Of a stretch of DNA of 64,000 nucleotides, positions 46,927-64,000 are shown in pieces. Source of the stretch: Christiangramia flava JLT2011 (GTDB lineage: Bacteria > Bacteroidota > Bacteroidia > Flavobacteriales > Flavobacteriaceae); NCBI RefSeq assembly GCF_001951155.1, contig NZ_CP016359.1:2504001-2568000 (forward strand). The letters run 5' to 3'. The notes below the pieces were generated by a model, which saw nothing but the letters and a program-made list of their open reading frames with translations, did no database searches and had not been told where the DNA came from. Position 1 is the first letter of the stretch, and every line of letters begins with the position of its first letter. The translations under genes were made by a program, and so were the position numbers.

Positions 46927-50049
<3,123 letters not shown>

Positions 50050-50152
50050 TCATATCCGAAAGACATAAAAATTAGGATATTTGAATTTAATAGGTGTGTA
50101 AAATACATTTAAATACAGATATATGAAAATTAGTTTTAAAACTACTGTAGTC

Positions 50153-51670
50153 TTATTGAATTAAGAATGTGGTGATTGATCTTTCAGGTAGAATGAAATA
50201 GTCTTTTTCTTGTATATCATGCAAGCTAAGGTTGCTAGAAGTAGAAGTAATATATGTCTTAGGTTGAAAATTGGGCGACATATTTAAAAATCGTAATTTT
50301 TGGGTTTGGCTTTCTGAATTTATTACTACGATAACCTTTTCTGCGCCGTTAGAATAACCTGATACTAATAAGTTTTCATCATTGCTTTTTACCTGAATTC
50401 TATAATATCCCGGTCGTATAAACCTACTAAAATTTCCCAGTGTCCATAGTAATTTACTCTCGTAAAATTTACCGTCTGTTTTATTTTTATCAATATAAAT
50501 AAGACCATCTTTATAATCATAAGGCGATACAGCGAGCCACCAATGCCATGCTGAAGCATTCGCAACGGTAAGGTCGTTATGAATAACCTTTGCCATATAT
50601 AGCGCTGGTTCGATGCCCAGATCTCGGCCGTTACCAATTATTTCACCATAATTATCTCCCAAAATACAATACTCAGACATCCAAAACTTTAAATCGGGAT
50701 AGTTATCAAGAGTATCCTTTAAATTTTGGCGCGTTCCCAAAAGTTTGATAGCAGGAGAAGTTGTAAAATAACTATGACCAGAAACCTTGTGGCTGATATT
50801 TTCAAGATCGCCTAAATAGTAGTCAGAGTTCTCATTAAAAAAACTAAAAATTTGATTAGCTGGTTTTTTTTGTGAGCTCTGGTAGAGAAAATTTAGCTGA
50901 GCCGCTTCCGGAATGTCAATAAGCGTTGATATATTACGATCTTCAAATTCGTCATTAATTTTTCTCGTAATCTTTGCAATTTCCTGGTTTTTGTAGGATG
51001 TTCCTTCCTGTTTGGAATCAATCCAGTCCCATTGAGGTTCATTGAATGGACTAAGATAAGTTATTTGCAAGCCAAGTGATTTGAAACCTTGAATAGCATC
51101 GGCCAGATATTGTGCAAAATTTTGATAGTGGGTTTCTGACAGATTCGACCTATTCGGTTTTGAAGCGTGTGCAATACCATTCCGGGTAAAATTTACATGA
51201 GGGGAATTTGTGAAAAGAAGTAAATCTTTCACGTGGAAACTTTTAGCAGCACTGGCCATCCAGATCTGCCCTCTCAGAGCACTCCAGTCGTGAGTGCCAT
51301 CTAATTTTAAAAAGGATCTACCACGATGCCATTCATCTTGGATATGACTATTGTCACCTTGTTCAAAACTTCCTCCCCCTAAATTTATGCGCCATAGAGA
51401 TAAACCTATCCCAAGCGCTTTGCCAGTATCATCAAAATCTTTGCTAAAAAGCAATTTTGCAATTTGTTGTTTTTTGGCATTAGGCCATAGTCCAACATAC
51501 TGAATAGACCATGCATCTGAAGCACCAAAATTATCAATAGTTTGGTAAATCACGGAATCGTTAATTTCTATTTCCGAGATAAGATTGCTTTGAGCTCGCA
51601 ATTTTAGATTTAAGAATATTATAACATTTAAAGTTAGAAGGTATTTCCAATAGCTGTAAAGTTTTCTCAT
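50153..51670 (-). CDS. GH30 family hydrolase (candidate endo-beta-1,6-galactanase)
   Basis: The 505-residue secreted protein has an N-terminal hydrophobic signal (about 1-26, ending LRAQ). GH30 features are TIDNFGASDAWSIQYVG, SLWRINLGGGSFEQGD, the acid/base Glu211 in SPFNEPQWDW and the nucleophile Glu333 in WMSEYCILGDN, then a C-terminal beta-sandwich. The 'FGASDAW' form resembles the GH30 group that holds endo-beta-1,6-galactanases; xylanase or beta-1,6-glucanase activity is not excluded. It is 121 bp upstream of the LacZ-type gene and divergent from susC. Base composition here looks more AT-rich than the GH2 genes below it. Confidence 0.85.
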   Translation of the reverse strand: MRKLYSYWKYLLTLNVIIFLNLKLRAQSNLISEIEINDSVIYQTIDNFGASDAWSIQYVGLWPNAKKQQIAKLLFSKDFDDTGKALGIGLSLWRINLGGGSFEQGDNSHIQDEWHRGRSFLKLDGTHDWSALRGQIWMASAAKSFHVKDLLLFTNSPHVNFTRNGIAHASKPNRSNLSETHYQNFAQYLADAIQGFKSLGLQITYLSPFNEPQWDWIDSKQEGTSYKNQEIAKITRKINDEFEDRNISTLIDIPEAAQLNFLYQSSQKKPANQIFSFFNENSDYYLGDLENISHKVSGHSYFTTSPAIKLLGTRQNLKDTLDNYPDLKFWMSEYCILGDNYGEIIGNGRDLGIEPALYMAKVIHNDLTVANASAWHWWLAVSPYDYKDGLIYIDKNKTDGKFYESKLLWTLGNFSRFIRPGYYRIQVKSNDENLLVSGYSNGAEKVIVVINSESQTQKLRFLNMSPNFQPKTYITSTSSNLSLHDIQEKDYFILPERSITTFLIQ

Positions 51671-51975
51671 TTGAGGTAATTATTAATGTGAATTATACAT
51701 TTAAATAATTGTTTTTAATTTAGTAATTGAATTGTCATTTTGAAAATTTTAAATAAAAAAACCTGTAAAAGCCCAAAATAATCTGTTAGAATTAAGAATT
51801 TTTTATATATTCGATTTTTAATTGTTTGATTAACACTTATAATAATTATCAAAATTGATTCCTGTTCACTCTATTTTCAAGTTTAAAATAGTGGAGAGTT
51901 TAATCATGAGATAAGCGATCAAGTGTTAAATATTTTTAAATTTTTAAAAACTAACTACTAACTAAAACCAAATTT
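51671..51975. promoter_or_regulatory. Divergent promoter region of the GH30 and SusC genes
   Basis: This 305-bp, very AT-rich gap holds no gene. It must carry the promoters for GH30 on the minus strand and susC on the plus strand. I found no TAnnTTTG box that fits either start, which would suit activator-dependent transcription, as is usual for SusCD loci. Confidence 0.45.
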
Positions 51976-54900
51976 ATGGGGGGATTTATTCTTACTAAAT
52001 TAAAAAAGAGGAAAACCATTCTACCTTTTTTAATTATCGCACTTTCATGGTTTCCCATTTCCGCCAAGCCAAATTCTTCATTGAAGGATATTCAGCAGAC
52101 CATTACTGGAACTGTGGTTTCCGAAAATGATCAAATGCCACTTCCTGGAGTAACCGTAATGGTAAAAGGTACTCAGAATGGTACAGTTACCGATTTTGAT
52201 GGAAATTATGAACTTACCGTCTCTGAGAACGATGCTATTTTAGTTTTTTCATTTGTTGGATTTAAGTCACAGGAAATTGCCATTGATGGGCAAAATTCTG
52301 TAAACGCCACAATGGAAGAAGATATGGGCCAGCTCGATGAAGTTGTCGTGGTGGGGTATGGTGAACAAAAACGAAGTAATATTCCTGGGGCTGTATCGCA
52401 GATTGAAGCTACAGAAATGGAGAAAAACCCGGCTCCAAACATGACCAGTGCATTGGTTGGTCAAACTTCAGGAATTATTGCAACTCAAAGGTCTGGTTCA
52501 CCAGGTGACGACTACTCTAATATTTATATTAGAGGTATCGGAACCACTGGAAATGCCTCTCCAATATTTGTGATAGACGGTATAATTAGAGGATATCGTG
52601 ATTTTGAGCAACTTAATGCGAACGAAGTAGAATCAGTTTCAGTGTTGAAAGACGCAGCTAGTGCAGCAGTATTTGGAGTTCGTGGAGGAAACGGCGTGAT
52701 ACTGGTAACAACTAAACGGGGTAAGGAAGGAAGAATGCAAATTAGCTTTACAACTAATTTGGGAATTCAGGAAAGAACCAATGAACCTAAATATTTGGGA
52801 TCTTATGAATATGCAAAATTATACAATGAAGCTTTAGTAAACCAGGGAGATGAACCCTTTTATACACAGGAAGATTTAGATAAATATCTGTCTGGATCAA
52901 GTCCTGATACGCACCCTGATGTAAATTGGTTCGACTTTTTGAAAAGTACTGCAGCTATGCAGGAATATAGTATTTCTGCCAATGGAGGTTCAGAAAAAGT
53001 TCAGTATGCCACTTCCCTAAGTTTCTTAAATCAAGATGGTATTGTTCCTTCCAATAATTTTAAGCGGTACAATTTCAGATCTAATATTGATGCCAACGTA
53101 ACGAAGACCACAAAACTCTCTTTTGATCTTTCTGGTCGAGACGACAGAACCAATAACGTAGCAGCTCCAGAACTTTTTCGTTGGTTGTCCAGTGAAAGAC
53201 CCAATAAGATTCCCGCTATATGGTCAAATGGCACCTATTCCGGTGGTCCGGCATATCTAGCATTACCAGAGAATGGTTATAGAAATAGGGCAATCATGGC
53301 ATTTAAAAGTAGAATGCAACTTCTTCAACAGCTTCCTGTAGATGGTTTAACGCTGAAGGCTATCGCCTCATATGACAAAACATTTCAGGATCAAAAGAAT
53401 TTCCTATTCCCGCAAATTCCGAACTATAGTCGAAATAGCGATGGAACTTTTACCGAAGGACCAATAGGAAAAACAGAATTATATCAGGATCATAATGATT
53501 ATCAGTCAATTACATTGGAAACGCACTTGAATTTCGATAAAGAATTTGGTAAATCAGATATCTCAGCACTTGTGCTTTACACTCAAACCGAAGAGAAATG
53601 GAAATTTATGTCGGCTTACAGAGATCAATTTACCCTTGCCATTGATGAATTGAATTTTGGAGGTGCTGCAAACAGAACTAACAGTGGTTATTCTGGCAGG
53701 AGTGCCAGAAGAGGTGTTGTAGGAAGATTAAACTATACCTTTGATGACAAATATATCTTGGAAGGAAGTTTTCGCGCAGATGCTTCTGAGCAATTTGCAC
53801 CGGGTCAGCGTTGGGGCTTTTTCCCTTCGGGATCTGCAGGGTATGTTATCTCAAAAGAATCCTTTTTGGAGGATTCAGAAGTGATTGATTTCCTAAAATT
53901 AAGAGCATCTTATGGTGTTTTAGGAAATGACCGTATTGGAGGGGCCAGGTTCCTATACCTTCAATCATTCAATCAGTCTGGTAATGCTGTCTTCGGAAAT
54001 GGGGATGTTCAACCAGCCATAGTAGAAGGGAATTTGGCGAATCCAAATGTCACCTGGGAAACTGTGAAAAAGTTTAATGTTGGAGTAGATGCAAATTTCT
54101 GGAATAGAATGCTATCGGTAAGTCTTGATTACTTCTATGACAAACGTACTGATATTTTAGGAAGCAGGAATTTAACTGTTCCAAGTTTGTTAGGAGTAGG
54201 TCTTCCGGTTGAAAATCTTTCCAGAATTGATAATAAAGGATTTGAAGCAGTCCTTGGACATCAAAACAGAATTAATGACGACTTTAAATATACGGTGAAC
54301 GCCAATTTCACCTACGCTAGAAATGAGATTGTATTTATTGATGAACCTGAAACGTCGAATCCAAGAATTAGACAAACCGGCCGTCCTTTATATGGTCAAT
54401 ATGGATATGTGTCTTTAGGGCTTTTCCAAACTCAGGAAGAAATTGATAATGCTGCTACACAAACCGGCAATATAGCGCCCGGAGATATACGATATGCCGA
54501 TTTGAACAATGATGGTGTTATTGACGATCTAGATAGAACTTTTATTGGGACTTCTAACACTCCAGAAATTATTTTTGGTCTCAACGGGAATTTTACTTAT
54601 AAAAACTTTCAACTTTCGTATCTTTTTCAAGGTGCGACTAACGTGAATCAATATTACGGGGGAGAGGCTTATTGGCCATTCTTCTTAGGAACAAGCCCGG
54701 CATTTGAACATAATCTAGACAGGTGGACGCCAGACAATCCTGATGCCAGTGAACCTCGTGTACTTATAGATTCCAATAGCAATCAGGCTGGTTCAGATTT
54801 TTGGCTTCAGGACGCTTCCTATGTTCGACTTAAAAATTTAGAGTTAGCTTATAATCTGCCGGTTGATAAAATTGGAGATAATTTTTTACAGTCGGCAAGA

Positions 54901-55032
54901 ATATATGTTAATGGTAACAACATTTATACCTGGACAGGAATTGAAGGTTATGACCCAGAAAACGGTGATGGCCGAGGCTGGGGGTACCCTCAATTGAGGC
55001 TTTGGAATGTTGGAGTAAATTTAACTTTTTAA
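51976..55032 (+). CDS. SusC/RagA-type TonB-dependent outer-membrane transporter
   Basis: The 1018-residue protein has a signal peptide (about residues 8-30), a carboxypeptidase-regulatory-like domain (about 41-115: ITGTVVSENDQMPLPGVTV, DGNYELTV), the TonB box-like region LDEVVVVGYGEQKRSN, a plug domain (about 125-235: IYIRGIGTTGNASPIFVIDG, GGNGVILVTTKRG) and a C-terminal beta barrel ending RLWNVGVNLTF. With SusD it takes up oligosaccharides across the outer membrane by energy from TonB. The substrate specificity must be inferred from the neighbouring enzymes. Its stop is 11 bp before susD. Confidence 0.96.
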   Translation: MGGFILTKLKKRKTILPFLIIALSWFPISAKPNSSLKDIQQTITGTVVSENDQMPLPGVTVMVKGTQNGTVTDFDGNYELTVSENDAILVFSFVGFKSQEIAIDGQNSVNATMEEDMGQLDEVVVVGYGEQKRSNIPGAVSQIEATEMEKNPAPNMTSALVGQTSGIIATQRSGSPGDDYSNIYIRGIGTTGNASPIFVIDGIIRGYRDFEQLNANEVESVSVLKDAASAAVFGVRGGNGVILVTTKRGKEGRMQISFTTNLGIQERTNEPKYLGSYEYAKLYNEALVNQGDEPFYTQEDLDKYLSGSSPDTHPDVNWFDFLKSTAAMQEYSISANGGSEKVQYATSLSFLNQDGIVPSNNFKRYNFRSNIDANVTKTTKLSFDLSGRDDRTNNVAAPELFRWLSSERPNKIPAIWSNGTYSGGPAYLALPENGYRNRAIMAFKSRMQLLQQLPVDGLTLKAIASYDKTFQDQKNFLFPQIPNYSRNSDGTFTEGPIGKTELYQDHNDYQSITLETHLNFDKEFGKSDISALVLYTQTEEKWKFMSAYRDQFTLAIDELNFGGAANRTNSGYSGRSARRGVVGRLNYTFDDKYILEGSFRADASEQFAPGQRWGFFPSGSAGYVISKESFLEDSEVIDFLKLRASYGVLGNDRIGGARFLYLQSFNQSGNAVFGNGDVQPAIVEGNLANPNVTWETVKKFNVGVDANFWNRMLSVSLDYFYDKRTDILGSRNLTVPSLLGVGLPVENLSRIDNKGFEAVLGHQNRINDDFKYTVNANFTYARNEIVFIDEPETSNPRIRQTGRPLYGQYGYVSLGLFQTQEEIDNAATQTGNIAPGDIRYADLNNDGVIDDLDRTFIGTSNTPEIIFGLNGNFTYKNFQLSYLFQGATNVNQYYGGEAYWPFFLGTSPAFEHNLDRWTPDNPDASEPRVLIDSNSNQAGSDFWLQDASYVRLKNLELAYNLPVDKIGDNFLQSARIYVNGNNIYTWTGIEGYDPENGDGRGWGYPQLRLWNVGVNLTF

Positions 55033-55043
55033 AATACTGAAAT

Positions 55044-56690
55044 ATGAATAATAGAATTTCTAGTCTTAGGAAAATATTTGGCACAGTGTTTTGCGTGCTT
55101 ACTTTGCTGAGTTGTCAGAAAGATTTTCTGGATCAGGTTCCCAAAGATTCCCTAACGGAAGAAACCGTTTGGTCCGATCCACAAGGTGCAACTCAATTTG
55201 TGAATGCAATTTATGGTGAAATGCCATCTGGTTTCGATCGATGGTATGATGGCTGGGCCAAAGGCCTGTATTTGTTTGATGGAGCATCAGATGATGGTGA
55301 TGTATCAATGGGATGGACGCATTCAACCTTACTTCAAAACGCAGAATTTTTGCCAACCTATGTTCCATGGGGAAATATGTGGAGTAACTATTATAATTTG
55401 ATACGAAAGGCGAATGTCGCTTTAGAGAATTTGGATAGGCTTGAGGATGAAGAGCTAAGAACAAGACTGAAAGGAGAAGTTTACTTTTTAAGAGGTTTTA
55501 TGTACCACAAGCTTTTAAGGTTGTTTGGTTATCGTTCATCTGGAGGTGAAGCAACTGGAGTTCCGTTGGTAACTACAAGTTTAAGCCTGGATGATGATTT
55601 GGCTATTCCTCGAGCGACCTATTCCGAGGTGGTAAGCCAGATTATAAGTGATTTGGATACCGCAGCAAGTTTATTACCCGCTAAAGGAGGAATAGAAGAA
55701 GGCAGGGCAACTTCTGGTGCCGCAATAGCCTTTAAAGGCAGAGTTTTGATGTACGCGGAAAAGTGGGCGGAATCTGCTAGTGCTTCTAATCAGATTATCA
55801 CTAATGCTAATTATTCACTATTTCCAGATTACAAAACCTTGTTTCTAACAAAGAACAACGAAGAGATAATCTTTGCCAAGAAATTTTTATACCCAGACAA
55901 ACATCATCAAACTAACGCAGGAGGAACCCAGAATGCTGGTTGGGATGTTTATAATACGCCTCCATCGTATAGAGGTGTAAGTGACGGCGGCTGGGGAGGA
56001 AATCTTCCAACTCAAAATTTTGTGGACTCATATGACATGGTAGACGGGTTGCCACAGGATGAATCTCCTCTGTATGACTCAGAAAAACCTTGGGATAATC
56101 TAGATCCTCGTTTCGAGGCAACAGTTGTTCATAATGGTGCAATGTTCAGAGGTCGTGAGGTTGAACTATTTGTAGGAGGCAGGGATATTCAATTTATTAA
56201 TACAGGATATTTCCTGAGAAAATTTCATAATGAAGACCTTGTAATCTATTCGCAATCCAGTGATCAGGATTGGATTTTTATGAGGTATGCTGAAGTGCTT
56301 CTTAATTATGCGGAAGCTCAAAATGAAGCAGTGGGACCAGATGCCACTGTGTATAGCGCAATTAATCAAATTCGTGGTAGGGCAGGTATGCCAGAACTTC
56401 AGTCTGGACTTTCACAAGACCAGATGAGAGAAAAGATTAGAAATGAAAGAAGAATTGAGTTGGCATTTGAAGAGCACAGGTTCTTCGATATTAGAAGATG
56501 GGAGATTGCTCCAAATGTTCTAAATGGACCTGTATATGGTATCCAACTGACTCCTAATGGAGATGGGACTTTTGAGTATAATCGTATTGAAGTTGAAGAG
56601 AGGCCTTTCCCAGAGAAAATGTATGTGTTACCAATACCTCAGGATGAAATTGATAAAAATCCTGCTGCAACACAGATTTTAGGATGGTAA
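55044..56690 (+). CDS. SusD/RagB-type surface glycan-binding lipoprotein
   Basis: The 548-residue lipoprotein (lipobox LLSCQKDF, Cys24) has the SusD start FLDQVPKDSLTEETVWSDPQ, TPR-like helices (EVYFLRGFMYHKLLRLFG) and the late hallmark RRIELAFEEHRFFDIRRWE with the closing PFPEKMYVLPIPQDEI. It forms the lid on the SusC barrel and binds the glycan. A strong terminator follows 28 bp downstream. Confidence 0.95.
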   Translation: MNNRISSLRKIFGTVFCVLTLLSCQKDFLDQVPKDSLTEETVWSDPQGATQFVNAIYGEMPSGFDRWYDGWAKGLYLFDGASDDGDVSMGWTHSTLLQNAEFLPTYVPWGNMWSNYYNLIRKANVALENLDRLEDEELRTRLKGEVYFLRGFMYHKLLRLFGYRSSGGEATGVPLVTTSLSLDDDLAIPRATYSEVVSQIISDLDTAASLLPAKGGIEEGRATSGAAIAFKGRVLMYAEKWAESASASNQIITNANYSLFPDYKTLFLTKNNEEIIFAKKFLYPDKHHQTNAGGTQNAGWDVYNTPPSYRGVSDGGWGGNLPTQNFVDSYDMVDGLPQDESPLYDSEKPWDNLDPRFEATVVHNGAMFRGREVELFVGGRDIQFINTGYFLRKFHNEDLVIYSQSSDQDWIFMRYAEVLLNYAEAQNEAVGPDATVYSAINQIRGRAGMPELQSGLSQDQMREKIRNERRIELAFEEHRFFDIRRWEIAPNVLNGPVYGIQLTPNGDGTFEYNRIEVEERPFPEKMYVLPIPQDEIDKNPAATQILGW

Positions 56691-56717
56691 TTCTAATTTC
56701 TATATTAGTTTGAAATT

Positions 56718-56759
56718 AAAAGGGTTGTAGGATTTGCAAAAATGCCACAACCCTTTTTT
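56718..56759 (+). terminator. Terminator after susD
   Basis: AAAAGGGTTGT at 56718-56728 pairs with ACAACCCTTTT at 56747-56757, an 11-bp stem with an 18-base loop, and the T run goes on to 56759. It separates susCD from the VCBS lipoprotein gene 46 bp later, so that gene is either read at a lower level or has its own promoter. Confidence 0.8.
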
Positions 56760-56805
56760 AATAAACTTTTTCCCATACAACGGAAACTACTTTACTTTTT
56801 AGGCA

Positions 56806-59800
56806 ATGGATTTCTTCTTTAAAAGAGTTTTGATCATCGTGATTTCGCTATTCAGTTTGGTTGCATGTAATAAAAAACATGAAGCCGATAAAATGCATGA
56901 ACCCAAATTATTTGAATTGCTAGATGCAAGTGAAACTGGGGTCAATTTTATGAATGAAATAGAGGAGACAAAGGAGCTAAATGTGATGCAGTATGAATAT
57001 ATGTATAATGGGGGGGGGGTTGGCATTGGAGATTTCAATGGCGACGGACTTCAAGATATTTATTTCTCTGCTAATATTAAGGATAACAAACTATATCTCA
57101 ATAAAGGCAATTTTCATTTTCAGGACATTACATCGGTATCACATACCGCAGGCAAGCACGGCTGGAAAACAGGAGTGGCTGTCGCAGATGTAAATGGTGA
57201 TGGTCTTTTGGATATTTATGTTTGCTATTCCGGTTTAGGTAATAATATAGAACGTTCCAATGAACTCTATATCAATCAAGGAAATGGTGCGGATGGTATT
57301 CCAACTTTTAAGAATAAAGCAAAAGAATTTGGACTGGAGGCCGAGGGAAGCTACAGTACACAATCGGTCTTTCTTGATTATGATTTAGATGGGGATTTAG
57401 ATATGTTTTTACTTAATCACTCGAAAGATTATTATTCCCCTTTTTATAATAGTACCAAGCTAAGGAATTCAAGACATCCTTTATACGGAAATAGGCTTTA
57501 CGAAAATAAGGATGGTAAATTTCAGGATGTGAGTGTCAAGGCGGGAATTCATGGCAGTGGTCTTAACTTTGGGTTAGGGGTCATCATTAGTGATATAAAT
57601 GAAGATGGGTTACCAGATATTTATGTATCGAATGACTATGTAGAACAGGATTTTTTCTATTTGAATAATGGAGATAAAACTTTTAATGAGGTCTCGAAAA
57701 GTTCGTTCGGTCATATTTCGCAATTTTCAATGGGAAATAATGCCGCAGATATTAATAATGATGGGCATATAGATATCCTCACTTTGGATATGTTGCCAGA
57801 AGATAATTATCGGCAAAAAATTTTAAAAGGATCTGATGAGTATGATCGCTATCATCTGGCAATAGACAGTGGGTATCATAAGCAGCAGATGCGAAATATG
57901 TTTCAATTAAACATGGGTATGGACAAAAACTCGATCCCAAAGTTTAGTGAAGTGGGGCAGCTTGCTGGCATATCTAATACAGATTGGAGTTGGGCACCCT
58001 TAATTGCGGATTTTGACGGAGATGGTCTAAAAGATGTCTATATCACAAATGGATACTTAAGAGATTATACGAATAAAGACTTTATGAAATTTGAGGTAAA
58101 TGAAGCCATAGCAAAAGTTAGGAAAAAAGGAGGTGAGTTATTTGGAAAAAAGGGAAAGGAAAAGTATGCAGACGTGATTTATGACCTCGTAAGAAAAATG
58201 CCATCTACAAAAATCTCGAATTATATGTACAGAAATACAAATGGTCTTAAGTTCGAAAATGTGAGTGAAGATTGGGGACTTGATAATCCAACTGTATCTA
58301 CAGGTGCAGCCTATGCTGATCTGGATGGTGATGGAGATTTAGATTTAGTGGTGTCTAATACGAATGAATTAGCTGGTATTTATCGGAATAACAGCGGGAA
58401 AGAAACTGATTATCTTAAAATCAGATTAAAAGGTAGTCATAAGAATACCCAGGCTATTGGAGCGAAAGTTTGGGTTACAACAGATTCATTAGAGCAGTAT
58501 CAAGAAAATTATAATGTTCGAGGATATCAATCTTCTGTAGATCCGATTTTATTTTTTGGCCTGGGACATTCCGCTAATAATATAAATGTGAAAGTTGTAT
58601 GGCCAAACAACAAGCTAACTATTTTAAAGGGGATTAAACCAAATCAATTATTAGAGTTGAACGTGCAGGAGGCAAAGAATAATGAACCTGAAAAAAGTGA
58701 AAGTGGTGATAAAAAGCTTTTAACTGAAATTGATAAGGGATATTTTCCATATAAACATGAGGAAAATAGATATATTGATTTTAAGGTAAACCGTTTGGCA
58801 CTTAAAGAAACCTCTAAATCTGGGCCAAAGATTTCGGTTGGCGATGCCAATAATGATGGTTTGGATGACGTTTTTATAGGTGGCGCTTTTGGCCAGGCGG
58901 ATGCTTTATTTCTAGGTACAAAAGAAGGAAGGTTTGAAGAAGTAAATAGGAGTTTTTGGGAAAAAACAAAAAAATATGAATCAACAGGATCAACTTTTTT
59001 TGATGCAGATGGAGATGGGGATATGGACTTATATGTGGTTAGTGGAGGGAGTCAGGCTCAGGAAGACATTTCTCTCCTAAGAGATCGAATCTATATAAAT
59101 GATGGACATGGAAATTTTTCAGATGTTACCCAAGAAGCTTTACCGGAAGCTTATGCGAATGGTAGTTTAGTAATCGCCGGGGACTATGATGGAGATGGAG
59201 ACCAGGATCTTTTCGTAGGTGGAGGTAGTAACGCTGCAACATATCCTGGATCAGAACTGGGAGGGATATTGCAAAATGAGAGTATAAACGGACAAGCAAG
59301 GTTTAAAATTGTCACAAAAGAAGTTAACGATGAATTGCGAAATCCGGGACTGGTTACCGATGCTTTATGGATAGATATTAATAAAGATAACCAGCTTGAT
59401 CTGGTGCTTTGTGGAGAATGGATGCCAATTAGAATTTTCATCAATGTAAATACCAAATTGGTAGAAAGGACAGCCGAATATGGTTTATCAGAAAGTTTTG
59501 GTTTGTGGCAAAAGATTATCGCTTATGATCGCGATAATGATGGCGATTTGGACCTAATGGTCGGAAATGTGGGAAATAATTTTCCGTTTCAGGTTAATAA
59601 AGATGAACCACTTGAGGCATTCATAGGGGATTTCAGAGGAGATGGAGTAGAATCCCCCGTATTGAGCAGCTATATTCAGGGGAAAAGATACCCTATTGCG
59701 ACTTTGGATGAATTACATGATGCATTCCCTTATATCAAAAAGAAATTTTTGAAATATGACCAATATGCCAAAGCTACATTGGAAGAAGTTTTCGATGTGG

Positions 59801-60207
59801 AAAAATTAAACAAAGCAAAACATTTAAAGGTTACCAATTTAAATAGTGCGTATTTGGACAATATTGGTGGCAAATACGTTATTAAAAATCTTCCGGAGGC
59901 GGCTCAATTTTCGGCTATACAGGGTATCAATCAATATGATTTTAATCAAGATGGAATTTCAGATGTATTACTAACGGGTAATTTTTATCCTATGAAAGTG
60001 GAATATGGGCCCAGTGATTCCGGAAAAGGTACTATTCTCTTAGGAGATAGTCATGGAGGATATACCGTACTGGATCACGCGGAATTAGGAGTATTCATAG
60101 AAGGAGATATTAGAGATGCTGAAATAGTGACTGTGGGTGATCAAAAAATTATAGTAGTATCGAAAAATAACGATAATCTCCAGTTATTAAGAATTAATGA
60201 ATTTTAA
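56806..60207 (+). CDS. Large VCBS/FG-GAP and ASPIC-UnbV repeat lipoprotein
   Basis: The 1133-residue lipoprotein (lipobox LVACNKK, Cys21) is full of Ca2+-binding DxNxDG/DxDGDG loops (GDFNGDGLQDIY, ADVNGDGLLDIY, ADLDGDGDLDLV, ADGDGDMDLYV), the mark of FG-GAP/VCBS propellers, in two blocks. Between them, at about residues 530-625, sits an ASPIC/UnbV domain (LKIRLKGSHKNTQAIGAKVW). Such proteins are frequent beside SusCD genes in Flavobacteriia and probably sit on the cell surface, binding glycan or steadying the complex; the exact job is not known. A run of ten G lies in codons 69-72. Confidence 0.85.
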   Translation: MDFFFKRVLIIVISLFSLVACNKKHEADKMHEPKLFELLDASETGVNFMNEIEETKELNVMQYEYMYNGGGVGIGDFNGDGLQDIYFSANIKDNKLYLNKGNFHFQDITSVSHTAGKHGWKTGVAVADVNGDGLLDIYVCYSGLGNNIERSNELYINQGNGADGIPTFKNKAKEFGLEAEGSYSTQSVFLDYDLDGDLDMFLLNHSKDYYSPFYNSTKLRNSRHPLYGNRLYENKDGKFQDVSVKAGIHGSGLNFGLGVIISDINEDGLPDIYVSNDYVEQDFFYLNNGDKTFNEVSKSSFGHISQFSMGNNAADINNDGHIDILTLDMLPEDNYRQKILKGSDEYDRYHLAIDSGYHKQQMRNMFQLNMGMDKNSIPKFSEVGQLAGISNTDWSWAPLIADFDGDGLKDVYITNGYLRDYTNKDFMKFEVNEAIAKVRKKGGELFGKKGKEKYADVIYDLVRKMPSTKISNYMYRNTNGLKFENVSEDWGLDNPTVSTGAAYADLDGDGDLDLVVSNTNELAGIYRNNSGKETDYLKIRLKGSHKNTQAIGAKVWVTTDSLEQYQENYNVRGYQSSVDPILFFGLGHSANNINVKVVWPNNKLTILKGIKPNQLLELNVQEAKNNEPEKSESGDKKLLTEIDKGYFPYKHEENRYIDFKVNRLALKETSKSGPKISVGDANNDGLDDVFIGGAFGQADALFLGTKEGRFEEVNRSFWEKTKKYESTGSTFFDADGDGDMDLYVVSGGSQAQEDISLLRDRIYINDGHGNFSDVTQEALPEAYANGSLVIAGDYDGDGDQDLFVGGGSNAATYPGSELGGILQNESINGQARFKIVTKEVNDELRNPGLVTDALWIDINKDNQLDLVLCGEWMPIRIFINVNTKLVERTAEYGLSESFGLWQKIIAYDRDNDGDLDLMVGNVGNNFPFQVNKDEPLEAFIGDFRGDGVESPVLSSYIQGKRYPIATLDELHDAFPYIKKKFLKYDQYAKATLEEVFDVEKLNKAKHLKVTNLNSAYLDNIGGKYVIKNLPEAAQFSAIQGINQYDFNQDGISDVLLTGNFYPMKVEYGPSDSGKGTILLGDSHGGYTVLDHAELGVFIEGDIRDAEIVTVGDQKIIVVSKNNDNLQLLRINEF
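57010..57019 (+). repeat. Homopolymer G10 tract in coding sequence
   Basis: Ten G in a row encode Gly69-Gly71 plus the first base of Val72 (motif NGGGVGIGD). Losing one G would move translation into a frame that closes at 57193; any change not a multiple of three truncates the 1133-residue protein to a short N-terminal piece. Confidence 0.9.
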
Positions 60208-60227
60208 TAACTATAAGAAATATATTA

Positions 60228-60593
60228 ATGTGTCCTTTTAATTCTACTATTGTTACAGAAGTACGTGATAGAGCTTTTAAATCGAACCCCGAAAAAGCAA
60301 CAGTGACAGGGAGTGAACTGGAGTCTGGTAGCGTTTATGACTATGGTCTTCGCAATGAAGATGCTACTACAGAAGAAGGAGGAGATGACATCATGTACGG
60401 TAGGTTTTTAGATGAATTAGCCTGGGAATTTAATCAGGAAGGGCATAGGCGCCAGGACATGATCCGTTTTGGGATCTTTACTGAAAAATCCTGGTTTTCC
60501 CATTCTCCGGATGGTGATTTCAGGGCCTTGTATCCAATCCCACAACAGGCATTGAACAACAACCCTAATCTTACGCAGAACCCGGGTTATTAA
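60228..60593 (+). pseudogene. 3' remnant of a second susD gene
   Basis: A 121-residue frame encodes only the C-terminal part of a SusD/RagB protein: TEVRDRAFKSNPEKATVTG, then FLDELAWEFNQEGHRRQDMI and the closing FRALYPIPQQALNNNPNLTQ followed by NPGY. A normal SusD has about 500-550 residues and a lipoprotein signal; here about four fifths, the signal and the TPR region are missing. The first ten or so codons (MCPFNSTIV) look like junction sequence. It differs from the intact SusD at 55044, so it is not a simple duplicate. It lies 20 bp after the VCBS gene and ahead of GH51. Confidence 0.85.
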
Positions 60594-60615
60594 TATATAA
60601 TTGTTTTAGCTGATT

Positions 60616-60646
60616 ATCCTGATGGCCGAAAGGCCATCAGGATTTA
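60616..60646 (+). terminator. Perfect 12-bp hairpin with GAAA tetraloop
   Basis: ATCCTGATGGCC-GAAA-GGCCATCAGGAT has no mismatch and is closed by a stable GNRA tetraloop. Only three T follow, so it may be a weak terminator or an RNA-stabilising element between the susD remnant and the GH51 gene 16 bp beyond it. Confidence 0.6.
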
Positions 60647-60658
60647 ATAAAAATAAGG

Positions 60659-62209
60659 ATGAAGAAGATTTTACTCAATTTTTTAGTTGCCACTGCATGT
60701 ATTGCGGGAAACGGGTTAATGGCCCAGGAAGTTTCCACAATTACTTTGAAACCCACAGATAGTGCTCCCATTATCAATAAGAATATATATGGTCATTTCG
60801 CCGAGCATTTGGGAAGACTGATCTATGATGGATTGTATGTGGGAGAAGACAGTTCCATTCCCAACACCAAAGGTGTTCGTAATGATATTATCAAGGCTTT
60901 GAAAGACCTGGATATCCCGGTTCTTCGTTGGCCTGGAGGCTGTTTCGCTGATACCTATCATTGGAAAGATGGAATTGGCCCTAAAGAAGATAGGCCTACA
61001 ATTGTAAACCAGTGGTGGGGCGGTGTTACCGAAGATAATAGTTTTGGAACGCATAATTTCCTCGATCTGTGCGAAGAATTGGAAACAGAGCCTTACCTGG
61101 CAGCAAATGTAGGTAGTGGAACGGTGAAAGAACTGGCAGATTGGGTGCAATATGTGAACCATGCCGGGGTAAGCCCAATGTCAAAATTACGGCAGGAAAA
61201 CGGCAGAAAAGAACCCTGGAAAGTAACCTATTGGGGTGTAGGTAATGAAGCTTGGGGTTGTGGCGGTCATATGACGGCAGAATACTATGCCAATGTGTAT
61301 AAAAAATACGCAACTTTTATGACCGATTGGAATAATGGTACAGGTTTATACAGAATTGCCTCCGGAGCAAATGCTGGTGATTATCACTGGACTGAAGTCT
61401 TGATGAGAGACATCCCAACAAACCTTTTGGAAGGCGTTGCCCTACATTCCTATTCGGTTATTGACTGGAGCAACAAAGGCTCCGCAACCGGATTTACCAA
61501 AAAACAGTATTTCCAGACCATGCAACGGGCATTGCATATGGAAGAACTTGTTACCAGGCATTCAGCGATCATGGATAAATATGATCCAGAAAATAAAGTA
61601 GCATTGATTGTAGATGAATGGGGAGGATGGTATGATGTAGAAGAAGGCACTAATCCAGGTTTTCTTTATCAGCAGAATACCATGAGAGATGCCATGATTG
61701 CAGGAACTACGCTGAATATTTTTAACAATCACGCCCGTAGGGTCAAAATGGCCAACCTGGCGCAGGCAGTAAACGTATTACAGGCTGTAATTCTTACTGA
61801 TGGGGAAAAGATGCTTCTCACTCCAACCTACTGGGTAATGCAAATGTATAAAGTGCACCAGGATGCCACTTTGATTCCACTAAATCTGGAGGGTGAAAAC
61901 TATGTAATGGATGGAGAAGAATTGCCTGCTATTTCAGCATCAGCATCCAAAGCAAAAGATGGGAAAGTGCATATTTCCCTGGTCAATATCGACTCTGAAA
62001 ATGCACATGAAGTTAGTATAGACCTTTCGGAAATGACTTTATCTGATTTATCAGCCAGGATACTGACTTCAAAAAATGTACAGGATTATAACTCCTTTGA
62101 AGATCCGGAAAGTATCAAGCCAGTGCCATTCAAAGATTTTAAAATGAAAAAGGGAAAACTGGATGTGGAAGTACCACCCTTTTCCGTGATCGTATTTGGA
62201 GAAAAATAA
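60659..62209 (+). CDS. GH51 alpha-L-arabinofuranosidase
   Basis: The 516-residue protein has a signal peptide (MKKILLNFLVATACIAGNGL then MAQ), so it is exported, unlike many cytosolic GH51 enzymes. Motifs are NKNIYGHFAEHLGRLIYDGL, LRWPGGCFADTYHW, acid/base Glu197 (YWGVGNEAWGCGG) and nucleophile Glu320 (LIVDEWGGWYDVE), with a C-terminal beta-sandwich. It cuts terminal alpha-L-arabinofuranose from arabinan, arabinoxylan or arabinogalactan. It is 42 bp ahead of the GH127 gene. Confidence 0.94.
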   Translation: MKKILLNFLVATACIAGNGLMAQEVSTITLKPTDSAPIINKNIYGHFAEHLGRLIYDGLYVGEDSSIPNTKGVRNDIIKALKDLDIPVLRWPGGCFADTYHWKDGIGPKEDRPTIVNQWWGGVTEDNSFGTHNFLDLCEELETEPYLAANVGSGTVKELADWVQYVNHAGVSPMSKLRQENGRKEPWKVTYWGVGNEAWGCGGHMTAEYYANVYKKYATFMTDWNNGTGLYRIASGANAGDYHWTEVLMRDIPTNLLEGVALHSYSVIDWSNKGSATGFTKKQYFQTMQRALHMEELVTRHSAIMDKYDPENKVALIVDEWGGWYDVEEGTNPGFLYQQNTMRDAMIAGTTLNIFNNHARRVKMANLAQAVNVLQAVILTDGEKMLLTPTYWVMQMYKVHQDATLIPLNLEGENYVMDGEELPAISASASKAKDGKVHISLVNIDSENAHEVSIDLSEMTLSDLSARILTSKNVQDYNSFEDPESIKPVPFKDFKMKKGKLDVEVPPFSVIVFGEK

Positions 62210-62251
62210 GAACTCTCAGTGAAATTTCGCCTTAGAAGGCGAGGATTTAAA

Positions 62252-64000
62252 ATGCAGACTATGAAGAAGAAAATATATAGAAATCTCAGTGTATTATTGA
62301 TGACCATGGGCTTAAGTTTGGGAGTAGCTCATAGCCAGCAGGAAAAGATACAGCTGTTTAAACTTCAGGATGTTCAATTAACATCCGGGCCTTTTCGCGA
62401 TGCAATGATGACAGACCTGGATTATATCATGGAACTGGATGCAGACAGGTTGCTGGCTCCATTTCTGAAAGAAGCAGGTTTGGAACCGAAGGCTGAGAAT
62501 TACCCGAACTGGGAAAACACAGGGCTGGATGGCCATATTGCGGGCCATTATCTCACAGCGCTTTCCCAAATGTATGCTTCTGCGGGTGATGAGGCTGCGC
62601 TGGAACGCTTGGAGTATATGCTTCAGGAATTGGAGCGCGTTCAAAAGGCCAATGGGAATGGGTATATTGGTGGGGTTCCAGGCAGTAAAAAACTTTGGGA
62701 CGAAATTGCTAGTGGAGAAATAAAAGCCGGGAGTTTCAGCCTGAACGACCGCTGGGTGCCTCTATACAACATCCATAAAACCTATTCCGGTTTAAGGGAT
62801 GCATATCTGATTGCCGGTCAGGAATCCGCAAAAGAAATGCTGATACAATTTACTGACTGGATGTGGAATACCACAAGGGAGCTTTCCAAAGACCAGATTC
62901 AGGATATGTTGCGATCGGAACACGGCGGATTAAATGAAGTTTTTGCCGACGTTGCGGAAATAACCGGCGACCAGAAGTATCTGGATCTGGCTTATAAATT
63001 TACACAGGAAGCAGTGCTGAAGCCTTTGGAAAAACAGGAGGATATCCTGAACGGGATGCATGCAAATACGCAGATTCCAAAAGTTATAGGCTATGAAACG
63101 ATTTATCACCTGGATGCCAATGAAGATTACCACACTGCTGCGGAATATTTTTGGGAGAATGTGGTGAACGAACGAACCGTGGCCCTAGGAGGGAATAGCG
63201 TGCGGGAGCATTTCAATCCGGCTGATGATTTTACATCAATGATCAATGACGTTCAGGGACCAGAGACCTGCAACACCTACAATATGCTTAAATTAACTGA
63301 AAAGTTATTCCAAAGTAAGCCAGAGGAGAAGTATGCAGCCTATTATGAAAAGGCCCTGTATAATCATATCCTGTCTTCACAACATCCTGATACCGGTGGC
63401 TTTGTTTATTTCACGCCAATGCGGCCGGAGCACTACCGCGTTTATTCCCAACCGGAAACCAGTTTTTGGTGTTGCGTGGGTTCAGGAATTGAAAACCACG
63501 GAAAGTACAACGAATTTATTTACGCCCATACAGCAAATGACCTGTATGTAAACCTTTTCATTCCTTCAGTTTTAAATTGGAAAGAAAAAGGTCTAAAGCT
63601 CACTCAGAAAACCCAATTTCCTCAGGAAGACGCTACTTCCTTTACCATTCATACCAGGAAATCCCAAAAATTGAACCTGTTGATAAGGTTTCCTGAATGG
63701 ACCGATAAGGAAGGATTTCAAATAAAGGTGAATGGTAATAACTGGAATATAGACCAGGTTTCAGGCAATTATATTTCAGTGAACAGGAAGTGGAAAGATG
63801 GCGATGAGGTGAGCGTGGAATTACCCATGCACATTTCTACGGAAGCTTTGCCTGATGGATCGAATTACCAGGCTTTTGAATATGGACCAATCGTTCTCGG
63901 AGCAAAGACTGGTGAGGAAGATTTGAAGGGCCTGTATGCCGATGCCAGTAGAGGCGGCCATATTCCGGCGGGCAGAAAAATCCCCTTATCAGAAACTCCG
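62252..64000 (+). CDS. GH127 beta-L-arabinofuranosidase (partial, runs off right edge)
   Basis: An open frame runs from ATG 62252 (GAGG eight bases upstream; another ATG at 62261) to the window edge, 583 residues without a stop. The signal peptide is MKKKIYRNLSVLLMTMGLSL with GVAHSQ. The DUF1680/GH127 core has LNDRWVPLYNIHKTYSGL, HGGLNEVFADVAEITGD, Glu319 (SVREHFNP), the zinc ligands Glu338 and Cys340 (GPETCNTYNMLKL) and the Cys407-Cys408 pair (SFWCCVGSGIENH) with the nucleophilic Cys. It removes beta-L-arabinofuranose. The missing C-terminus lies beyond the window. Confidence 0.9.
   Translation, partial: MQTMKKKIYRNLSVLLMTMGLSLGVAHSQQEKIQLFKLQDVQLTSGPFRDAMMTDLDYIMELDADRLLAPFLKEAGLEPKAENYPNWENTGLDGHIAGHYLTALSQMYASAGDEAALERLEYMLQELERVQKANGNGYIGGVPGSKKLWDEIASGEIKAGSFSLNDRWVPLYNIHKTYSGLRDAYLIAGQESAKEMLIQFTDWMWNTTRELSKDQIQDMLRSEHGGLNEVFADVAEITGDQKYLDLAYKFTQEAVLKPLEKQEDILNGMHANTQIPKVIGYETIYHLDANEDYHTAAEYFWENVVNERTVALGGNSVREHFNPADDFTSMINDVQGPETCNTYNMLKLTEKLFQSKPEEKYAAYYEKALYNHILSSQHPDTGGFVYFTPMRPEHYRVYSQPETSFWCCVGSGIENHGKYNEFIYAHTANDLYVNLFIPSVLNWKEKGLKLTQKTQFPQEDATSFTIHTRKSQKLNLLIRFPEWTDKEGFQIKVNGNNWNIDQVSGNYISVNRKWKDGDEVSVELPMHISTEALPDGSNYQAFEYGPIVLGAKTGEEDLKGLYADASRGGHIPAGRKIPLSETP

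Follow-up and report, generated by a model that had tools for sequence, protein, structure and literature searches.

Remnant of a susD gene before the GH51 arabinan operon of Christiangramia flava and the probable succession of its uptake pair

The window analysed here is a stretch of 64,000 nucleotides of Christiangramia (Gramella) flava JLT2011 (hereafter G. flava; contig NZ_CP016359.1, positions 2,504,001 to 2,568,000), in which positions are counted from the first letter. Near its right end an arabinan operon begins, with a gene of glycoside hydrolase (GH) family 51 as the first gene kept, and before GH51 lies a short open reading frame that resembles the 3' end of a susD gene. Polysaccharide utilization loci (PULs) are commonly interpreted as fixed units, the substrate being predicted from the SusC-SusD (SusCD) uptake pair. 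At this locus, the uptake pair of the operon was probably deleted, the pair of a neighbouring cluster came to stand before GH51, and the short frame, which we call the stump, is what remains of the lost susD.

A type-A SusD remnant between the VCBS gene and GH51

The frame at 60228-60593 (forward strand) encodes 121 amino acids, which were identified as a SusD C-terminus by Pfam PF07980 (E 1.7e-12; 48 bits against a cut-off of 23.1), and in a whole-genome profile scan they covered positions 185-297 of the 297 in this domain. The N-terminal SusD domain PF14322, which the intact SusD of the window has together with PF07980, was missing, as was the full length of about 500 amino acids, and no lipoprotein signal peptide was recognized by eye in the 121 residues. 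Since only this portion of PF07980 is present and PF14322 is not, the stump is a remnant and not a SusD. It gave no blastp match at E 1e-3 to the full SusD at 55044-56690, and thus the two are different SusDs; the first-pass annotation, which had placed the 3' fifth of a different susD between the VCBS gene and GH51, was therefore correct. No cognate susC lies directly upstream of the stump, where the VCBS gene is found instead.

Alignment of the stump with the full-length SusD of a relative (G346) matched it to residues 426-541 of 541, at 72% identity. Homology to the relatives starts at codon 6 or 7 of the frame, i.e., at base 60243 in the tblastn alignments or 60246 by eye, and the codons before that point have no counterpart in them. 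Counted from the latter base, the remnant (60246-60593, forward strand) consists of the last 115 codons and the stop of a susD that we designate type A. The stretch from the VCBS stop to the first homologous susD codon (60208-60245, forward strand) contains the ATG at 60228 and the five or six codons without counterpart, and the first part of its 38 bases is similar, by eye, to the sequence that follows VCBS in G021, a congener. The junction had been anticipated near 60230-60260 and lies at about 60230-60246.

The scanned genome, a single contig of 4,007,868 bases, holds 19 SusD places, among which the stump is the sole short frame; the other 18 are frames of 447-644 amino acids, one of them flagged with an internal TAA, and a part of PMC5306329 gives 18 susCDs for Gramella (Christiangramia) flava JLT2011. 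The same short frame was also not found as a conserved gene in relatives: among 397 genomes of the family searched at E 1e-16, the only comparable one was a 324-amino-acid frame on a 3.2-kb contig, all other matches being at least 500 amino acids long.

In a protein collection the stump is present as two member sequences on six contigs, which may be further strains or copies of this genome. A search for related proteins returned 83 beyond P0001 and P0002; for 72 of these the longest contig is shorter than 10 kb, so that they are likely cut genes, and two list none, while the nine on longer contigs (P0019, P0023, P0025, P0026, P0032, P0033, P0037, P0040 and P0075) could include further stumps. 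Type-A SusD tails were observed in P0019 (138 amino acids), in P0031 (165 amino acids), where the tail stands behind a sigma-factor domain (PF04542), and in P0032 (113 amino acids), which lies on a 95-kb contig and starts at almost the same residue as the stump. As a third stump P0019 was rejected: its start appeared SusC-like by eye, but its N-terminal part had no significant SusC match (best E 0.07).

Relatives that retain the full pair

In a tree of 34 SusD C-termini, the stump grouped with types A and A2 at 100/100, its position among the A rows being unresolved, and its parent clade was thereby located. At E 1e-16, 16 of the 397 family genomes, the window's own included, matched the stump, the best outside G. 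flava at 72%, and 12 loci of stump relatives were read. In three of them (G346, G425 and G242, of three other genera) a full susC-susD pair stands directly before GH51, exactly the synteny that a lost pair had led the first-pass annotation to look for. The SusD orthologues in these three are of full length and 68-73% identical to the stump over the shared part, and the gene order is susC, susD and GH51 on one strand, with a 229-amino-acid gene (araR) divergent upstream; in G242, the type-A pair stands behind another pair, of type B. In the other nine loci, GH51 does not directly follow the SusD. A scan of named-species genomes added relatives in Thermophagus xiamenensis (75%) and Zunongwangia pacifica (72%); the Thermophagus stretch also has GH127-, GH51- and araB-like frames, with the closest GH51 relative on the opposite strand, and no GH127-, GH51- or araB-like frame was seen in the Zunongwangia stretch.

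Losses around the operon

The type-A SusC partner was not found in the G. flava genome, in which the best match was a 53% paralogue at 734 kb; since that paralogue is matched more closely by proteins of other genomes (63-65%), the true type-A partner is gone. Likewise, residues 1-425 of the type-A SusD had no match above 48% in this genome. The earlier proposal that an older susCD pair was lost before GH51-GH127 thus holds, although the event was wider than had been proposed, as araR is parted from the operon and a GH43 gene is missing.

A GH43 of 506-541 amino acids directly follows GH51 in all seven loci with full susCD that were read first (G002, G004, G021, G006, G346, G425 and G242). There are two subtypes of this GH43, about 35% alike, and the G002 copy matches the NCBIfam endo-arabinanase model below the cut-off of that model. 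When the G002 copy, i.e., one of the two subtypes, was used as query, this partner GH43 was not found in the G. flava genome, the best match (33%) being a shorter GH43 of the same operon. Two congener loci that lack susCD (G011 and G015) likewise have no such GH43 between GH51 and GH127. Overall, the uptake pair and the presumed endo-enzyme GH43 are gone, and GH51, GH127, the smaller GH43s and the ara genes have been kept.

The 229-amino-acid neighbour was recognized, on its G002 copy, as an NrtR/Nudix regulator with an AraR_C domain. This araR adjoins GH51 or its susCD in all nine GH51 loci of relatives that were read first, six of which are from congeners. The G. flava orthologue lies at 992712-993398 of the genome contig (85% identity, the next best match being 49%), 1.57 Mb from the GH51 operon and next to an unrelated 415-amino-acid frame, and no piece of the operon's susC or susD was found beside it.

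The present transporter unit and its base composition

The GH51 gene (60659-62209, forward strand) encodes an α-L-arabinofuranosidase (PF06964, PF22848) 79% identical to that of the congener G002, and GH127 (62219-64000, forward strand; PF07944) runs past the end of the window. Upstream of the stump stands a unit that we designate W, all on the forward strand: susC (51976-55032; PF13715, PF07715), susD (55044-56690; PF07980, PF14322) and, as third gene, that of a VCBS/FG-GAP, ASPIC-UnbV protein (56806-60207; PF13517, PF07593). W-type susC and susD were found at 77-86% identity in three of the 23 other genomes of the genus that were searched (G002, G004 and G021), with 80-83% for susD. In two of these congeners the W unit and GH51 share a strand and a contig, with W about 48 kb (G021) or 31 kb (G004) upstream; in G002 the distance is about 810 kb. 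In all three, GH51 is headed by a different pair, of type B. A W-type unit also precedes GH51 in two other genera: immediately in G334, where araR is divergent upstream of it, and with one 728-amino-acid frame in between in G121. From these positions we infer that W-type transporters can serve a GH51 operon. The idea that the present segment replaced an older pair stands insofar as a W unit is now found before GH51, but this segment is not foreign to the genus. Considering the identity of its susD to those of congeners, a recent import from outside the genus was rejected, but a transfer between congeners may have taken place.

Divergent from the W unit lies a GH30 gene (50153-51670, reverse strand; PF14587) with a low GC content at third codon positions (GC3) of 0.294. 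It was also observed that G002 and G021 have a second susCD pair and a frame of 1370-1376 amino acids beside a GH30 that is 53-56% identical to that of the window, and that neither is found next to GH30 in G. flava (51671-51975).

Over about 49.5-60.5 kb the GC content in 1-kb windows is 0.32-0.41, as against 0.39-0.46 on the flanks, and the GC3 of GH30, susC, susD and VCBS is 0.29-0.31, as against 0.39-0.46 in the nine flanking genes examined; the stump and GH51 have 0.388 and 0.387, respectively. When G. flava genes were compared with congener orthologues, the GC3 offset (positive where G. flava is higher) was +0.002 for the segment (8 pairs, in which four genes are counted up to three times and the GH30 pair is only 53% identical) and +0.083 for other genes (53 pairs), with a rank-test p of 1.7e-5, which overstates the evidence due to the repeated genes. 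Another G. flava susD and its following VCBS-type frame have the usual offset (0.146 and 0.136), and a third susD and its neighbour have little (0.047 and 0.004). Over 18 genomic susD genes the mean GC3 is 0.39 (standard deviation 0.06), so that the present susD, at 0.308, is low but not the lowest.

Survey of GH51 loci and a second stump

At E 1e-200, GH51 orthologues were found at 45 places in 44 of the 397 family genomes, and the upstream stretch was read for all 45, namely, 40 that were fetched and annotated, the loci of four relatives, and the window. With SusD types assigned as labels of the best reference hit, one or two full SusDs were found upstream of GH51 in 20 loci: type A in two, B with A in one, B in nine, C in one, B with C in one, C2 with VCBS in four, and W with VCBS in two. 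SusD stumps were found in two loci and no SusD in 23; tblastn with SusD references on 22 fetched stretches and G015 likewise revealed no SusD on the GH51 strand at E 1e-3. Linkage of araR, read from the last seven frames per locus, was seen in 27 of the 40 survey loci; among these 40, L142, L144 and L158 are truncated by the end of the contig, and some other stretches start within a gene.

The second stump, in G076 (L144:4635-5199), comprises residues 367-522 of 522 (156 residues) of a C-type SusD at 74% identity; it lies before GH51 and directly behind a putative AraR operator (27.9 bits), and a 20-codon frame starts just upstream of it. Since types A and C belong to different clades, the two stumps are independent. 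Tandem susCD pairs were found before GH51 in G242 (L061:749-10541), with B then A, each with a putative AraR operator, and in G163 (L139), with B then C. Overall, the site before GH51 changes its transporter readily, and a tandem arrangement makes the loss of a pair easy.

AraR sites and stem-loops

A near-palindrome, AARTGT-N7-ACAYTT, is common to all nine araR/susC or araR/GH51 gaps from which sites were picked by eye, and the nine sites were used to train an operator weight matrix. The pattern fits the AraR site of Bacteroides, which is described in a part of PMC4666351 as a semipalindrome of 21 bp with a GTGT element. The best match in the window was a putative operator before GH30 (51682-51703, reverse strand; 18.2 bits), followed by weaker ones before the GH2 gene at 46927-50031 (50090-50111, reverse strand; 15.9 bits) and upstream of the present susC (51819-51840, forward strand; 14.6 bits); a putative box before araB downstream scored 21.1 bits. 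Since the chance maxima in ten simulated 64-kb sequences were 10.0-15.4 bits, the boxes before GH2 and susC are weak when taken alone. They are supported by AraR-like boxes upstream of the W-type susC in the congeners (23.6 bits in G004, 15.8 in G002 and 13.3 in G021). The exact pattern had six matches in the whole genome, two of them the GH2 and GH30 sites of the window, against 12 for the reversed control, and so has no power alone; with two mismatches, there were 18 matches in the window against 14.3 expected. The W unit seems to share an AraR regulon with the arabinan operon.

Between the stump and GH51 lies a 12-bp stem-loop (60616-60643, forward strand; z -5.67 against shuffled sequences). 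It is not an intrinsic terminator with a G+C-rich stem and a U-run, the stem being followed by UUAAUAAAAA. All eight gaps between susD (or stump) and GH51 that were folded (the window, L059, L060, L061, L053, L054, L057 and L058) had a strong stem of differing sequence and no U-run, with z from -3.0 to -6.5 and at most one of 200 shuffles as stable. The stem of the window resembles those of G002 and G004 by eye, although their SusDs belong to another clade. The stem-loop between susD and GH51 may be an element for stabilizing or processing the mRNA.

Discussion

We propose that the ancestral arabinan operon (GH51, GH127, further GHs, araB, araD and araA) would have been headed by a type-A susC-susD pair with araR divergent upstream, an arrangement still present in G346 and G425 and, behind another pair, in G242. 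The susC gene, the operator-promoter and codons 1-425 of susD would have been lost by a rearrangement or deletion that also took araR from this place, and the operon would thereby have become attached to the 3' end of a neighbouring cluster. This cluster, judged by its enzymes, may be arabinogalactan- or RG-I-like, and its own susC-susD-VCBS unit is the one now found in front of GH51. As the W unit is apparently in the same AraR regulon, readthrough from its promoter could keep GH51 expression dependent on arabinose; in other words, a fusion of two operons of one regulon would preserve arabinose control. Uptake would then probably be carried out by the W-type SusCD.

As to how the pair was lost, the variant with the better claim, although we hold it only tentatively, is that the ancestor had tandem pairs, W-VCBS and then A, before GH51, of which only A was deleted, so that no segment moved in. 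Tandem pairs do exist before GH51 (in G242 and G163, see above), as does W-VCBS before GH51 in G334 and G121, but the order W then A was seen in no genome, the genes to the left of the W unit are GH30 and further enzyme genes instead of araR, and in the three W-carrying congeners W lies away from GH51. A breakpoint variant, which we find rather doubtful, holds that an inversion or translocation inside or before susD moved araR to 992 kb, where susC and the 5' part of susD were lost later. It would account for an araR that is intact but displaced; however, no susC or susD piece lies beside araR there, and the two moves need not be linked.

That the 121-amino-acid frame is instead a working small gene is very improbable. 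It is open over 115 codons, its 70-77% identity to intact relatives is like that between other type-A rows (65-76%), and its tree branch (0.11) equals the median, which points either to a break that is young compared with the divergence or to a frame under continuing constraint; nonetheless, it has neither an N-terminal domain nor, by eye, a signal peptide, a recent break explains the open frame, and the lack of a short orthologue at E 1e-16 in the 397 family genomes, other than the 324-amino-acid frame, led us to reject this explanation. Finally, the view that the stump is a stray 3'-end copy of the paralogue at 733 kb, the nearest SusD in the genome and in another cluster with GH51- and GH127-like genes, deserves almost no credence and was rejected by the identities and the tree, as the stump is 55% identical to it but 70-77% to type-A genes of other organisms, and in the tree the paralogue forms a group with four further A2 rows (100/99).

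Several observations weigh against the proposed loss and succession. The genes matching the segment in up to three congeners are equally low in GC3 (0.275-0.314), and since the W unit occurs in three of 23 congeners with this composition, the dip is not proof of import and reflects in part the genes themselves. Instead of forming a step, the GC3 offset diminishes across 45.9-50 kb and is still small in GH51 relative to G002 (0.003); thus, of the composition change expected at about 50.1 and 60.2 kb, the dip is real, but its edges are graded and are not a sharp sign of arrival. Regarding regulation, the 14.6-bit box before the present susC falls within the range of chance maxima, no AraR-like box between VCBS and GH51 (60.2-60.66 kb) was among the twelve best matches of the window (at least 10.0 bits), and no Bacteroidetes-type promoter was found there by a search that was insensitive, as it found none before the present susC either. 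A terminator-like hairpin with a T-run between the present susD and VCBS (56691-56805) could cut readthrough. Separation from araR is not unique to G. flava, as 13 of the 40 further loci also showed no araR near GH51, and a part of PMC5306329 that reports arabinan use by G. flava does not name the transporter. As a separate observation, a hairpin similar to that after the present susD was seen by eye after five other G. flava susD genes (L051, L127, L133, L134 and L135).

This kind of event is known in principle from the mosaicism of PULs, and the present locus is an ordinary kind of PUL remodelling in an unusually clear case; with the displaced regulator, the missing GH43, the possible fusion within one regulon, and the second stump, it goes beyond a trivial pseudogene. 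No literature on truncated, pseudogene or lost susCD, or on stem-loops after susD, was found as judged by titles and the openings of abstracts. Here, the enzymes of an operon have persisted without the uptake pair and the partner GH43 that once belonged to them, and they are now preceded by another cluster's transporter. Predicting a substrate from the adjacent susCD is misleading at such loci, which also show how membership in a regulon could make operon fusions viable. A broader and rather unlikely generalization is that uptake pairs at the AraR-controlled site form an exchangeable module of at least four types (A, B, C/C2 and W), in which deletion tends to stop inside susD, since the 3' end of susD with the stem-loop acts as a leader that sets GH51 expression. 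If this were true, SusD stumps would be scars of module exchange, from which past transporter swaps could be read genome-wide.

Comparison with known systems

Compared with the SusC-SusD pairs of Bacteroidota PULs, the parent gene of the stump and its place, right after susC and before the enzymes, are the same; the difference is that G. flava has lost the susC and all but the last fifth of susD. With the arabinan PULs of G346, G425 and G242, the locus shares the order of GH51, the GH43s and, where present, araB, and in G346 also GH127; however, those three keep susC, susD, a GH43 of 507-537 amino acids after GH51, and an adjacent araR. With the AraR arabinose regulon of Bacteroides, as presented in part of PMC4666351, it shares a regulator family with NUDIX, NrtR_WHD and AraR_C domains, as tested on the G002 orthologue, whereas in G. 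flava araR lies apart from the operon, which has also lost the operator of its original susC.

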